This document shows positions 15,891 through 19,383 of a stretch of DNA of 64,000 bases, one piece after another. The notes under the pieces are model-generated. The model worked only from the letters and a program-made list of their open reading frames with translations, did not search any database and had not been told where the DNA came from. The first letter of the stretch is position 1, and every line of letters begins with the position of its first letter. Origin of the DNA: Flavobacterium cucumis (GTDB lineage Bacteria; Bacteroidota; Bacteroidia; Flavobacteriales; Flavobacteriaceae); NCBI RefSeq assembly GCF_900148835.1, contig NZ_FRYK01000001.1:744001-808000 (forward strand), written 5' to 3'. A program made the translations under genes and the position numbers.

Positions 15891-15898
15891 AAAAATTA

Positions 15899-15925
15899 AA
15901 TCACGCCTGGAGCGTGATTTTTTTT
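15899..15925 (+). terminator. Rho-independent terminator of recA
   Basis: AATCACGC (15899-15906), loop CTGGA, GCGTGATT (15912-15919), followed by a run of T to 15925. The stem is perfect. Confidence 0.9.
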
Positions 15926-15984
15926 ATTACTTAACGCAACCTTTTCACAACTACATAATCTTATAGAAAAACAAATTTATTAAA

Positions 15985-16386
15985 ATGAAAAAATTAGTTT
16001 TATTAATAAGTATGCTATTCTTATTTAATTCTTGTGAATTAGATGATCCTAGTTTTACTGTTGATGTATTACCTGTAGCGTCCGTTGAAATGCCAACTGA
16101 ATTTGTTTTAGGAGAAACCTATCAAATCACTATGAAATATTTCAAACCTACTAATTGTCATACATCTTATGGTATTTATTATGAGAAAGATTTAAATACA
16201 AGAGTTTGTGCTATTAAAAATTTAGTTGAAAATAGAAGTAATTGTGCACCGATTGTAAATGTGTTAGTTGAGGAAACCTTTAATTTTCATGTTACAAATA
16301 CTGGAAACTATATTTTTAAATTTTGGACAGGCACTGACGATGAAGGTAATGACACATTTATTATCCACGACATTCCAGTTAATTAA
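15985..16386 (+). CDS. Hypothetical lipoprotein upstream of an ECF sigma factor
   Basis: A 133-residue protein with a lipoprotein signal (lipobox FNSC, Cys17) followed by ELDD. An acidic stretch just after the cysteine is the kind of signal that sends lipoproteins to the cell surface in Bacteroidota. The mature part looks like a small all-beta domain with three further cysteines (NCHTS, VCAIK, NCAPI). It ends 11 bases before the sigma factor start and is probably in the same operon, so it may belong to the envelope-sensing unit. I do not recognise the family. Confidence 0.6.
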   Translation: MKKLVLLISMLFLFNSCELDDPSFTVDVLPVASVEMPTEFVLGETYQITMKYFKPTNCHTSYGIYYEKDLNTRVCAIKNLVENRSNCAPIVNVLVEETFNFHVTNTGNYIFKFWTGTDDEGNDTFIIHDIPVN

Positions 16387-16397
16387 CACGTAATAAA

Positions 16398-16940
16398 TTG
16401 ATCTTAGAGCAACTTATACATGAATGCAAAGTCAATAATACTAAAGCACAAGAACAACTTTATCGCTTGTTAGCACCAAAGTTGTTCTCTGTGTGCTTAA
16501 AGTATTCTCGCAATTATGAAGAGGCTCAAGACAATTTACAGGAAAGTTTTTTAGTGATATTTGAAAAAATTAATCAATACAAAAATACAGGTTCATTTGA
16601 AGGGTGGGCCAAGCGAATTACGATAAATTACGTTTTACAACAATATAGGAAACATAACGTTTTTGAAATAATTTCAGAAAAAATTGCTGAGGAAGAAGAA
16701 GTTGAAATTGATGATGATAACATTAGTCTGGAATTTTTAACTAAGATTATTCAAGAATTACCCGACAGATATCGATTGGTTTTTAATTTATATGTTTTGG
16801 ACGGATATTCTCATAAAGAGATTGCTGAGATGTTAGAAATTAACATCGGAACGTCTAAATCAAATTTAGCTAGAGCAAAAGCTATTCTGAAAAGCAAGAT
16901 AGAGTCAAATAATAGTTTTGAGGTAAAAAAAAGTAAATGA
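16398..16940 (+). CDS. ECF-family RNA polymerase sigma factor (TTG start)
   Basis: A 180-residue sigma-70 factor of the extracytoplasmic-function type. Region 2 lies at ~10-75 (LFSVCLKYSRNYEEAQDNLQES, then GSFEGWAKRITINYVLQQYRK). Region 4 lies at ~110-165 (LPDRYRLVFNLYVLDGYSHKEIAEML). The only usable start is TTG at 16398, since an in-frame TAA lies 15 bases upstream and there is no ATG at the N-terminus. The stop overlaps the ATG of the next gene (ATGA), so sigma factor and membrane partner are coupled, as in cognate sigma/anti-sigma pairs. Confidence 0.92.
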   Translation: MILEQLIHECKVNNTKAQEQLYRLLAPKLFSVCLKYSRNYEEAQDNLQESFLVIFEKINQYKNTGSFEGWAKRITINYVLQQYRKHNVFEIISEKIAEEEEVEIDDDNISLEFLTKIIQELPDRYRLVFNLYVLDGYSHKEIAEMLEINIGTSKSNLARAKAILKSKIESNNSFEVKKSK

Positions 16941-18553
16941 AAGACAACAAAAACATAGAACGATTATTTCAAGAAAAATTCAAAGATTTTGAAGCTTTAC
17001 CGCCACAAGACTCTTGGGATTTGATTGCTAGTCGTTTAAATGAGAAAAAGAAGAAAAAAAGAATTGTGCCTGTTTGGTTTCAAATTTCGGGAATTGCAGC
17101 TTCATTATTCTTAATAGCTGGTTTAATTTGGAATTTCTCTGACGAAAATCAAATAGAGATACCCGACTCTAATTCTACTATTGTAAACACGAAAGATGCC
17201 AAAAAAGACGCAACTGATTCTAAATTTAACACACCAAACAATACTGAAATCATTACTGATACGCAATCAAATAAAAATACGACTGAAAAACCTATAGATA
17301 ATTTAGTACATCAAAATAATGACGGCATTAATTCGAGTTTCAATCATAACAGTAAAAATAATGTCGTTTCAAATAATGTAATAAAAGACAATGTTAAATC
17401 TTCTTTAACTCAAACAGCATCTTCAAACGAAAAAGAGGAGCCTTTACATAAGCAAAATAACAGGGTTAACATCTTTGTTAATTCCGAAAAAAACAAAGCT
17501 AATAATGGGTTAAATCCTAAATTAAATAAAAACAATAATGGTTTTGAAAACCTTGTTGAGAATAATTTCGTAGATAAAAATAATAGTGATAGTAATACCG
17601 CTATTGACAAAGAAAAACAAGATGTTTCTTTTTTTAACAAAACATCAAACACGATTGTTAACAATGGCATAAATTTCACAAAAAGTAAGGTAATAAGCCC
17701 TACCGCTACTCTAAATGAAATCTTGTCTAAAGATAGTACTCTAATTGTTGAAATTCCAAAAGAATTAAATCCATTAGAGGAATTGCTTAAAGAAAAAGAG
17801 GCTGGGAAAAATGAAGATGAAAAAGAAGAAAAAAGAAGTAAATGGGCGATTAGCACAAATGCGTCGCCTGTTTATTTTAATTCTTTAGCGCAAGGATCTT
17901 CTATTGATGAGCAATTCGATTCAAACAGCAAAAATTATGCAACTACTTTAAGTTTTGGAATAGCTGGAAGTTATACAATAAATAATAAATTAAGTTTAAG
18001 AACAGGTATAAACAATATTAATTTGAGCTACAACACAAATGATGTAGTTTTTGATGCAAGACTTAGAGCGGTTGAAAGTAATATTCCTTCTATATCAAGA
18101 AATGCCGATGCTACAAATATGATTTTTACCTCTAAAAATAATACTACAGAAGCTTTTTTGGGTGATGTAGAAAATGTAATTCTTGAAAACAACGTGGGAG
18201 CGTTACAACAAAACATAGGTTACATTGAAGTGCCTTTAGAGTTAAGTTACAAAGTATTAGATAAAAAATTTGGTGTCGAAGTAATTGGTGGAATGAGTAC
18301 CTTATTTTTAAATCAAAACAACATTTCGTTAGTGGCAAATGGCATCGAAATGGAAGTAGGAAAAGCAAATAATTTAAACAGCATACATTTTAGTAGTAAT
18401 GTCGGTTTGGGTTTTAAATACTCGTTCTGGAAAAGTTTTAATGCTAATTTCCAACCTATGTTTAAATACCAGATCAATACGTTTAGTGAAAATTCCGGTA
18501 ACTTCAAGCCTTATTTTATAGGCTTGTATACCGGAATTAGTTTTAGTTTTTAA
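16937..18553 (+). CDS. Probable dual-membrane-spanning anti-sigma protein (cytoplasmic segment, inner-membrane helix, long linker, outer-membrane barrel)
   Basis: A 538-residue protein with unusual topology. Residues 1-42 are a charged segment (RLFQEKFKDFEALPPQDSWD, then a Lys run) that would stay in the cytoplasm. About 45-66 form one membrane helix. About 70-300 form an Asn/Lys/Ser-rich, low-complexity linker. Residues 302-538 are a porin-like beta-barrel (alternating strands, ending SFSF with a terminal Phe, as in outer-membrane beta-signals). It would span inner membrane, periplasm and outer membrane in one chain. This matches the Dma class of anti-sigma factors reported in Bacteroides thetaiotaomicron. 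It overlaps the ECF sigma gene by 4 bases. The signal it senses is unknown. Confidence 0.75.
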   Translation: MKDNKNIERLFQEKFKDFEALPPQDSWDLIASRLNEKKKKKRIVPVWFQISGIAASLFLIAGLIWNFSDENQIEIPDSNSTIVNTKDAKKDATDSKFNTPNNTEIITDTQSNKNTTEKPIDNLVHQNNDGINSSFNHNSKNNVVSNNVIKDNVKSSLTQTASSNEKEEPLHKQNNRVNIFVNSEKNKANNGLNPKLNKNNNGFENLVENNFVDKNNSDSNTAIDKEKQDVSFFNKTSNTIVNNGINFTKSKVISPTATLNEILSKDSTLIVEIPKELNPLEELLKEKEAGKNEDEKEEKRSKWAISTNASPVYFNSLAQGSSIDEQFDSNSKNYATTLSFGIAGSYTINNKLSLRTGINNINLSYNTNDVVFDARLRAVESNIPSISRNADATNMIFTSKNNTTEAFLGDVENVILENNVGALQQNIGYIEVPLELSYKVLDKKFGVEVIGGMSTLFLNQNNISLVANGIEMEVGKANNLNSIHFSSNVGLGFKYSFWKSFNANFQPMFKYQINTFSENSGNFKPYFIGLYTGISFSF

Positions 18554-18615
18554 GCTTTGTTGGTTAAGCTTAAATTTATAGTTAAGTTGTTTCATTTCTA
18601 GTTAAAATGAAACTG

Positions 18616-18644
18616 AAAAAGTCCAAATGCGTTTGGACTTTTTT
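18616..18644. terminator. Bidirectional terminator between the anti-sigma gene and plsC
   Basis: AAAAAGTCCAAA (18616-18627), loop TGCG, TTTGGACTTTTT: a strong stem with A and T tracts on both sides, serving the two convergent genes. Confidence 0.85.
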
Positions 18645-19383
18645 ATTTTAAATCCTCCAATAAAGGTTGTAAAATAACTTCCCTTACTTGTTTTTTCAAT
18701 GCATTTCTATCTTCTAATGTTTTTCCTTTCGTTTCAATTATTGGATAAATTTTAGCACGCATTTTTCCTGGATTTCCGCTGAAAAAAGTATACGAAAAAC
18801 GCTTTTTGTTATCAAAAAACACCATTGGTACAATTGGTAAACCGTGTTCAATTGCAATTCTGAAAGCGCCATCTTTAAATTCATCTAATACTATATGTTC
18901 TTCGGGAACACCACCTTCAGGAAAAATACAAATACTTAATCCTTGATGAATTCGTTTTTGAGCGCGTTCAAAAACCGCATAGCGACTTTTGCTACTACTT
19001 CTATCAACCAAAATACAAACACGTTTATAGATAAATCCAAAAATCGGAATCTTAGCCAATTCTTTTTTTCCTACAAATACAAAAGGATGATTTTTCACTG
19101 CAATCAGCATTAACATAATATCCGTCATCGAAGTATGATTAGCTACTAGCATATAACTTTTCCCATCTTCAAAAACTTCATCGCCTTCTATTTTGTAATG
19201 AAATCCCATTCCAATTAAAATAAACTTTGCCCAAATACGCGCAATTCTAAAAAATAACGGATAGGTTTTTTCACTTAAAATTGTAACTAGAATAAATGGA
19301 AATAACACAATAATTGGCACTAAAACCAAAATGTAAAACCAAATACGATATAAAAGGGTGAGCGGATATTTCAAAAATTTCAT
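18643..19383 (-). CDS. plsC: 1-acyl-sn-glycerol-3-phosphate acyltransferase
   Basis: Membrane enzyme (246 residues from the ATG at 19383) that acylates lysophosphatidic acid to phosphatidic acid in phospholipid synthesis. The N-terminal hydrophobic hairpin covers ~10-45. The catalytic NHTSMTD (HX4D) and the substrate-binding FPEGG with the preceding SICI are present. An upstream in-frame ATG eight codons earlier was not used because MKFLKYPL matches the usual N-terminus and sits just after the promoter. It is divergent from trpS. Confidence 0.9.
   Translation of the reverse strand: MKFLKYPLTLLYRIWFYILVLVPIIVLFPFILVTILSEKTYPLFFRIARIWAKFILIGMGFHYKIEGDEVFEDGKSYMLVANHTSMTDIMLMLIAVKNHPFVFVGKKELAKIPIFGFIYKRVCILVDRSSSKSRYAVFERAQKRIHQGLSICIFPEGGVPEEHIVLDEFKDGAFRIAIEHGLPIVPMVFFDNKKRFSYTFFSGNPGKMRAKIYPIIETKGKTLEDRNALKKQVREVILQPLLEDLK

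Follow-up and report, generated by a model that had tools for sequence, protein, structure and literature searches.

A recA-linked operon of Flavobacterium cucumis coding for a lipoprotein, an ECF sigma factor and a Dma-type protein predicted to span both membranes

The window analyzed in this work, a stretch of 64,000 nucleotides of the Flavobacterium cucumis genome (contig NZ_FRYK01000001.1), holds an operon of three open reading frames (ORFs) that adjoins recA and codes for a lipoprotein, an extracytoplasmic function (ECF) sigma factor and a protein of 538 residues (ORF listing of the window). This long protein has the layout of the Dma-type anti-sigma factors and is the main subject here. 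All three ORFs were found where the original prediction, made from the sequence alone, had placed them, and the 4-base overlap between the end of the sigma gene and the start of the long-protein gene was confirmed. Terminator-like hairpins lie on either side of the trio, which therefore looks like one discrete unit. The features of the operon were the following:

15898..15920, + strand: putative intrinsic terminator that follows recA and sets it apart from the operon (9-pair stem, then a T run; consensus match only).
15934..15961, + strand: predicted ECF promoter, ACGCAACC (-35), N16, ATCT (-10), 23 bases 5' of the lipoprotein ATG.
15985..16386, + strand: lipoprotein gene, 133 aa (ORF; immunoglobulin (Ig)-like beta sandwich, Cys17 lipobox).
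16398..16940, + strand: ECF sigma factor gene, 180 aa, TTG start (Pfam regions 2 and 4).
16937..18553, + strand: gene of the long Dma-type protein, 538 aa (ORF, alignment, AlphaFold2, Foldseek and direct coupling analysis (DCA)).
16937..17062, + strand: residues 1-42, predicted two-helix sigma-binding domain (DCA with the sigma factor; W27).
17072..17140, + strand: residues 46-68, inner-membrane helix (hydropathy; AlphaFold2 model).
17144..17758, + strand: residues 70-274, disordered Asn-rich tether (confidence below 50; 21.5% Asn).
17843..18550, + strand: residues 303-538, predicted 8-strand outer-membrane barrel, last residue Phe (Pfam in relatives, AlphaFold2, Foldseek).
18614..18645, + strand: putative terminator after the operon (14-pair stem with a T tail; consensus match only).

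The long protein had been expected to consist of a short cytoplasmic segment, a single inner-membrane helix, an Asn-rich linker and a barrel, and each of these parts was borne out by hydropathy, AlphaFold2 and Foldseek. In the AlphaFold2 model, built from a 47-sequence alignment, helices at residues 4-16 and 24-37 precede a transmembrane helix at 46-68. Residues 70-274 are disordered, and after a further helix at 279-293 come eight long strands, spread over residues 303-537 and joined by loops that hold short elements. The predicted local distance difference test (pLDDT, 10-residue means) reached 79-96 in the barrel, except for 64-66 at residues 401-420, and stayed below 50 in residues 70-274. 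Foldseek placed the barrel close to OmpA, OprG, Ail, NspA and OmpW among solved structures (probability 1.00). At the sequence level the long protein gave no above-cut-off match in Pfam or NCBIfam, and a sequence search of solved structures returned linker and transmembrane-type matches only (best E 0.0019). The Pfam model OMP_b-brl matched 44 of the 47 aligned relatives at E<=0.1 (best 2.1e-8), the window protein standing outside those 44. The first 45 residues contain 12 K/R and 8 D/E, and a single strong hydrophobic stretch stands out, the best 19-residue hydropathy window beginning at residue 46; both features fit an anchor with its N-terminus inside. A cleaved signal peptide is not indicated, the transmembrane helix being preceded by this basic segment of 45 residues (by eye and hydropathy).

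The linker occupies residues 70-274, that is 205 residues with 21.5% Asn and no Cys, whereas in no other window ORF of at least 200 aa did Asn exceed 12.2% over 205 residues. The cytoplasmic domain and the barrel were conserved in a 22-sequence alignment but the linker was not. Being disordered and without sequence conservation, such a tether would be easy to cut, and a cut during or after assembly would leave a separate inner-membrane anti-sigma factor and a separate barrel, with signaling that needs a second contact; split anti-sigma factors are known in cell-surface signaling. We regard this as a rather unlikely course, since the length between residue 70 and the barrel stays at 158-305 residues in 108 of the 109 relatives measured (median 214.5), relatives covering residues 1-538 are stop-free open frames, and no conserved cut site was seen by eye in the 22-sequence alignment.

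Taking both barrel ends as periplasmic, conservation was 0.66, 0.63 and 0.73 in the modelled external loops L1, L3 and L4, near the level of the strands (0.65-0.79), vs. 0.35 in loop L2. Small barrels do not usually have conserved external loops, so that conservation in three of the four suggests a conserved partner or ligand. The same loops bear on a second explanation, in which the barrel would report in cis on the assembly of outer-membrane proteins: the chain would be stable when the beta-barrel assembly machinery (BAM) inserts the barrel, and an uninserted end would trigger proteolysis of the chain and free the sigma factor, so that a single molecule would serve both as RseA and as its inducing peptide. 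The OmpA-type fold, the position of the barrel in cis with the sigma-binding domain and the C-terminal Phe, invariant in the 22- and 47-sequence alignments, speak for it, and Escherichia coli DegS reads such C-terminal barrel ends. Pure assembly reporting would not need loops L1, L3 and L4 to be conserved like strands, and no chaperone or BAM gene was noticed among the first regulon genes listed (by eye, with no family search). On balance we hold this explanation to be improbable.

The sigma factor matched both Pfam regions above cut-off (Sigma70_r2, 4.1e-12; Sigma70_r4_2, 3.3e-16). Among 233 candidates, namely the window and 232 loci, eight lacked a sigma factor, and 225 pairs of sigma factor and anti-sigma factor were read and kept, three of them without the P-W spacing motif; W27 was present in 225/225 paired sequences, start codons having been chosen partly by the motif that holds it. 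Mean-field DCA of the 217 distinct pairs gave the highest couplings (sigma residue first) for K161-E8 (4.64), Q44-P23 (2.66), G136-Q12 (2.09) and V133-F15 (2.01), followed by T15-N35, V133-I50, Q48-R33, Y137-D28, N63-I60 and Q44-F58, whereas the maxima after random re-pairing were 1.10-1.60 (12 trials). Residues 8, 12 and 15 of the long protein coupled to sigma region 4, and 23 and 33 to region 2; the first three would share one face of helix 1 and the other two would lie at and in helix 2. Opposite charges at E8 and K161 occurred in at least 194 of the 217 pairs (RD 149, KE 29, RE 12, KD 4). In a control set of 103 loci plus the window, the top score of residues 1-42 was 3.44, vs. at most 3.05 for 20 windows of 42 columns in the barrel and at most 2.32 for 20 such windows in the lipoprotein. 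Support for the predicted interface thus comes from the raw score at equal column number and from where the pairs fall, which is good support but not proof. The proposed contact of residues 1-42 with the sigma factor was in this way supported computationally, with coevolution reaching both sigma regions and nothing that refuted it.

In a gapless alignment, K161 corresponds to the second Arg of the R-A-R-E motif in E. coli sigma E (chain 1or7_A, position 181). We take this position to be R178, provided that three N-terminal residues of the 194-residue chain are additions to a native length of 191. As described in passages of one source (PMC7406223), the key charged contact joins RseA D11 with RpoE R149 and R178, and anti-sigma factors generally bind sigma4 by helix 1 and sigma2 by their last helix. 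By this alignment the strongest coupled pair (D/E8 with R/K161) matches the known RseA D11-RpoE R178 contact. Linkage and coevolution show partnership and not its sign, and the long protein might in principle be a positive regulator or a bifunctional partner of the sigma factor, whose loss would turn the regulon off. The match of the strongest pair to an inhibitory contact argues against such a role, as does the deletion of dma1 or dma2 in Bacteroides thetaiotaomicron, which acts via the cognate sigma factor as a loss of repression according to parts of PMC13088901; positive action therefore seems very unlikely to us.

The long protein is widespread in the family of F. cucumis. Matches (E<=0.001) were obtained in 164 of 199 sampled genomes, some of them spanning the barrel half only, and this distribution, together with the conservation of cytoplasmic domain and barrel among the 22 aligned sequences, indicated that the protein is not a chance ORF. 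A phylum-wide profile search matched 44 of 148 sampled genomes, many via the N-terminal part alone. The 109 homologous loci studied were best matches and hence biased to close relatives, the nearest being Flavobacterium aquaticum (67% identity). Among them the sigma factor was adjacent in 108, recA lay upstream in 107 and a lipoprotein homologue was present in 103; the sigma-less locus (L041) has only about 120 bases 5' of the long gene. The sigma and long genes overlapped by 4 bases in 42 loci and by 1 base in 23. No lipoprotein homologue was recognized in the remaining 6/109 loci, five of which keep sigma factor and Dma protein, the sixth being a contig edge.

A sigma-like neighbour was found in 40 of 43 wider loci, L289-L291 being weak and seemingly unrelated matches, and no natural fusion of sigma factor and Dma protein occurred among the 43. 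In these wider loci the N-terminal domain belongs either to short proteins (about 226-285 aa) or to ones whose long C-terminus is of another kind, and it is thus a module that occurs both with and without an outer-membrane part. The genome of F. cucumis itself has a second ECF sigma factor with a 228-aa anti-sigma factor (L280, C9:304570-305238), which has the N-terminal domain in common with the long protein and lacks the length to hold a barrel, and other Flavobacterium genomes carry the same domain with a different C-terminal part (L262/L283, 643 aa; L282, 587 aa). Only 6% of Bacteroidetes ECF sigma factors have a class I anti-sigma factor nearby, and other classes may dominate, as stated in passages of PMC7406223; the N-terminal domain described here is a candidate to fill part of this gap.

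The predicted promoter of the operon, ACGCAACC-N16-ATCT at 15934-15961, recurred in the homologous loci. Between recA and the sigma gene, GCAACC-N13..18-ATCY was present in 106 of 108 loci, with a spacing of 16 in 104, whereas shuffled sequences gave a mean of 0.4 and a maximum of 3 (20 shuffles); the full ACGCAACC-N16-ATCT was found in 95/108, and the promoter lay 416-609 bases 5' of the sigma gene. A related promoter pattern had one match in the window and 0 in 100 shuffles. The same motif stood 5' of distant pairs of ECF sigma and anti-sigma factors in other families (L264, L265, L275, L281, L309), a count of 5/61 loci in which some are duplicated and many have limited upstream sequence. 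A literature search of titles and abstract openings, which did not cover the founding Dma1 paper (PNAS 2024), gave no paper presenting this promoter motif. In other sources, the letters GCAACC occur inside a probe (PMC5607195) and inside a primer (PMC2771747), and the ECF motif of Flavobacterium psychrophilum has a CGT -10 box, unlike the operon promoter (PMC9723704).

A divergent site of GCAACC-N16-ATCY type, located 5' of recA and pointing away from it, was observed in 32 of the 74 loci with enough upstream sequence (L066-L109); a 33rd match (L062) does not fit. Behind this promoter copy, on the other strand upstream of recA, lies a conserved ORF of 28-30 residues with the consensus MKFFKxTxxxxALGVSVTVxxNSNCKADGG. 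The relatives that carry it (L157, L163, L181, L191, L201, L207, L214, L245, L066, L087, L103 and others) amounted to 20 matching loci, some genomes counting twice, with 17 distinct sequences of 30 aa. Third codon positions varied most (1613 vs. 946 and 651) and synonymous single changes (848) exceeded non-synonymous ones (652). The pattern of this small ORF had no match in the 64-kb window, and the three sequences tested had no match in NCBIfam.

Searched in 60 genomes of the family, ACGCAACC-N16-ATCTW gave 182 matches, the operon's own promoter included, vs. 5 for the pattern read backwards. At least one site was present in 49/50 genomes with a Dma match and in none of the 10 without it, several of which are small (hypergeometric chance of co-occurrence, 1.5e-10). 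We read 130 sites, namely 129 of the 182 and one near-match in F. cucumis; a downstream ORF of at least 60 aa started within 400 bases at 108 of them and none did at 22. Excluded from the first genes were 13 that matched the lipoprotein or sigma factor of the operon and 14 read as trhO or U32 peptidase. By a simple lipobox pattern, lipoprotein-like first genes made up 51 of 81 behind read sites vs. 41 of 518 in the background, which consisted of the flanks of L031-L110 and includes repeated orthologues, a weakness of the comparison on account of which no P value is given for the excess. Other first genes, named by eye, resembled those of SusC-type receptors, of small barrels and of surface proteins of repeat type, and regulon genes other than the operon lipoprotein varied between genomes (by eye). 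Just two operons stood out in the genome of F. cucumis, the one studied here with 0 mismatches and a SusC/SusD operon with 1 (L250-L251). The latter, SusC/SusD-like and located at C9 near 195763, also has a further lipoprotein-like gene.

The model of the operon lipoprotein was an Ig-like sandwich (mean pLDDT 93.3), with no match in the Protein Data Bank by Foldseek at E<=0.001. Columns C17, C58, C87 and G116 were invariant in 47 lipoprotein sequences, and a Cys58-Cys87 disulfide is likely from the invariance of both residues. After the lipid-bearing Cys the window protein reads C-E-L-D-D and the family favours S-L/I-D-D-D (100 lipoproteins). These acidic residues are akin to export signals of Bacteroidetes surface lipoproteins (SDDDD for B. 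fragilis, SDDFE for F. johnsoniae; passages of PMC5080379), and therefore surface exposure is likely. A NigD-like identity was considered and not supported: the NCBIfam NigD1/NigD2 model matched 5/47 members (best E 0.014), and the NigD family was absent among the 13 Pfam families listed. The NCBIfam model Riean_0653 weakly matched 24/47 members (best 9.9e-6), the window protein at 0.022 over residues 1-33, which are mostly signal peptide.

Whether the lipoprotein takes part in sensing can be weighed on these data. It might be a mere member of the regulon, first in the operon by chance, and we give this possibility serious weight, at somewhat less than an even chance. Lipoproteins are the commonest product behind the promoters, sigma factor and Dma protein persist in the five loci with no recognized lipoprotein homologue, and coevolution of barrel and lipoprotein is weak, the top DCA score being 1.68 vs. 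1.30-1.45 in 4 re-pairings; among its top 50 pairs, 7 fell in loops L1 or L3, none in L4 and 11 in the variable L2. A chance position is disfavoured by the lipoprotein gene being first in the operon in 103/109 loci, whereas the other regulon genes vary by genome. A bolder view, to our judgment speculative and quite unlikely, makes of the operon a sensor that monitors, in a closed loop, the delivery of lipoproteins to the surface. The exported lipoprotein would then occupy the barrel's conserved external loops, so that the chain stays in a holding state; a failure of export would leave the barrel empty and the sigma factor would be released, raising this and other surface lipoproteins until the loops were refilled. 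If true, one polypeptide would report surface lipoprotein supply directly to RNA polymerase.

All these data taken together argue for the anatomy of the long protein, its pairing and interface with the sigma factor, the promoter and the content of the regulon, as far as sequences can tell. We consider it probable, with good confidence, that the trio is an autoregulated envelope signaling operon in which the long protein holds the sigma factor and spans both membranes to its barrel. Anchored in the inner membrane by one helix, the long protein would hold the ECF sigma factor through residues 1-42, helix 1 on region 4 and helix 2 mainly on region 2, and its disordered tether of 205 residues would reach across the periplasm to the outer membrane, where the 8-strand barrel would be seated. 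Changes in the outer membrane or on the cell surface may be read by the barrel with its conserved external loops, and the sigma factor would be freed by pulling, cleavage or degradation of the chain. Once free, it would start transcription at ACGCAACC-N16-ATCT and thereby raise its own operon (sigma factor, anti-sigma factor and lipoprotein), along with a small set of envelope genes, mostly for lipoproteins in the relatives and the SusC/SusD operon in F. cucumis. Within this scheme we infer that the sigma factor is inhibited and not activated and that a single uncut chain runs through both membranes, and also what the signal is and how the sigma factor is released.

Several results weigh against the proposed operon function. 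The predicted template modelling score of the full AlphaFold2 model was 0.47, and pLDDT of the first 70 residues was about 59-76. In the control set of 103 loci plus the window, z-scores of barrel (10.7) and lipoprotein (10.0) equalled that of residues 1-42 (9.7), so that phylogeny alone yields sizeable couplings. Three of the 10 strongest couplings involve transmembrane residues (I50, I60, F58), D28 of helix 2 couples to Y137 of region 4, and sigma T15 precedes Pfam region 2. The promoter motif was found in 24 of 55 further loci with close sigma factors, misses that are uninformative given that many of these stretches hold about 450 bases 5' of the sigma gene and the promoter lies at 416-609. 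One of the 50 Dma-matching genomes has no site. Loose scans of the F. cucumis genome showed no excess over controls, either with up to 2 mismatches (7 vs. 8) or for GCAACC-N14..17-ATCTW (10 vs. 9); being at control level, they leave the regulon of F. cucumis beyond the two promoters uncertain.

Dma proteins have been studied in one gut Bacteroides (parts of PMC13088901), and a Dma-type system, linked to recA, is here extended to most sampled genomes of the F. cucumis family. New elements are the coevolution of the sigma factor with residues 1-42, the promoter, the inferred regulon and the conserved external barrel loops; a linked lipoprotein, a promoter and a regulon were not found described in the Dma literature searched, which did not cover the founding Dma1 paper (PNAS 2024). 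An interface predicted down to a charge pair, a sharp promoter and a lipoprotein-rich regulon form a basis for direct tests, and the question of how Bacteroidota sense their outer membrane could be addressed, in a relative amenable to laboratory work, by means of a reporter and a small number of point mutants.

Among known anti-sigma factors, those of class I have a four-helix cytoplasmic domain, in some groups with a zinc motif Hx3Cx2C, and CnrY of Cupriavidus metallidurans (class II) has two helices, the first on sigma4 and the second on sigma2 (passages of PMC7406223). Compared by description, the two-helix domain of the long protein resembles CnrY and its DCA binding mode broadly matches, Y137-D28 excepted. 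The long protein also resembles RseA of E. coli (class I) in setting an acidic residue of helix 1 against the equivalent Arg/Lys of sigma region 4, and differs from it in having two predicted cytoplasmic helices, not four, and an outer-membrane barrel of its own. We know of no barrel or tether in CnrY. Membership in class I was discarded, with two cytoplasmic helices and no Cys or His in residues 1-75. Short Bacteroidota anti-sigma factors (about 226-285 aa, such as L280) have the same N-terminal domain, a transmembrane stretch and the sigma pairing, but no room for tether and barrel. As described in parts of PMC13088901, Dma proteins possess an N-terminal sigma-binding part, a transmembrane helix, a disordered tether, a C-terminal barrel and an adjacent ECF sigma factor, which family criteria assign to the ECF21 family, with deletion raising vesicle production through the sigma factor; dma2 lies in a three-gene operon. 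The Dma-type layout that had been proposed for the long protein was supported on every feature that a sequence can test, from the sigma-coupled N-terminal domain, the single transmembrane helix and the long disordered tether to the barrel, the adjacent ECF sigma factor and the three-gene operon. Judged from its sequence and compared by description with Dma1 and Dma2, it is a flavobacterial Dma-type protein, and its unit differs from the Dma units described in that it follows recA, starts with the gene of an Ig-like lipoprotein, and has a defined predicted promoter and, in the relatives, a regulon mostly of lipoproteins.

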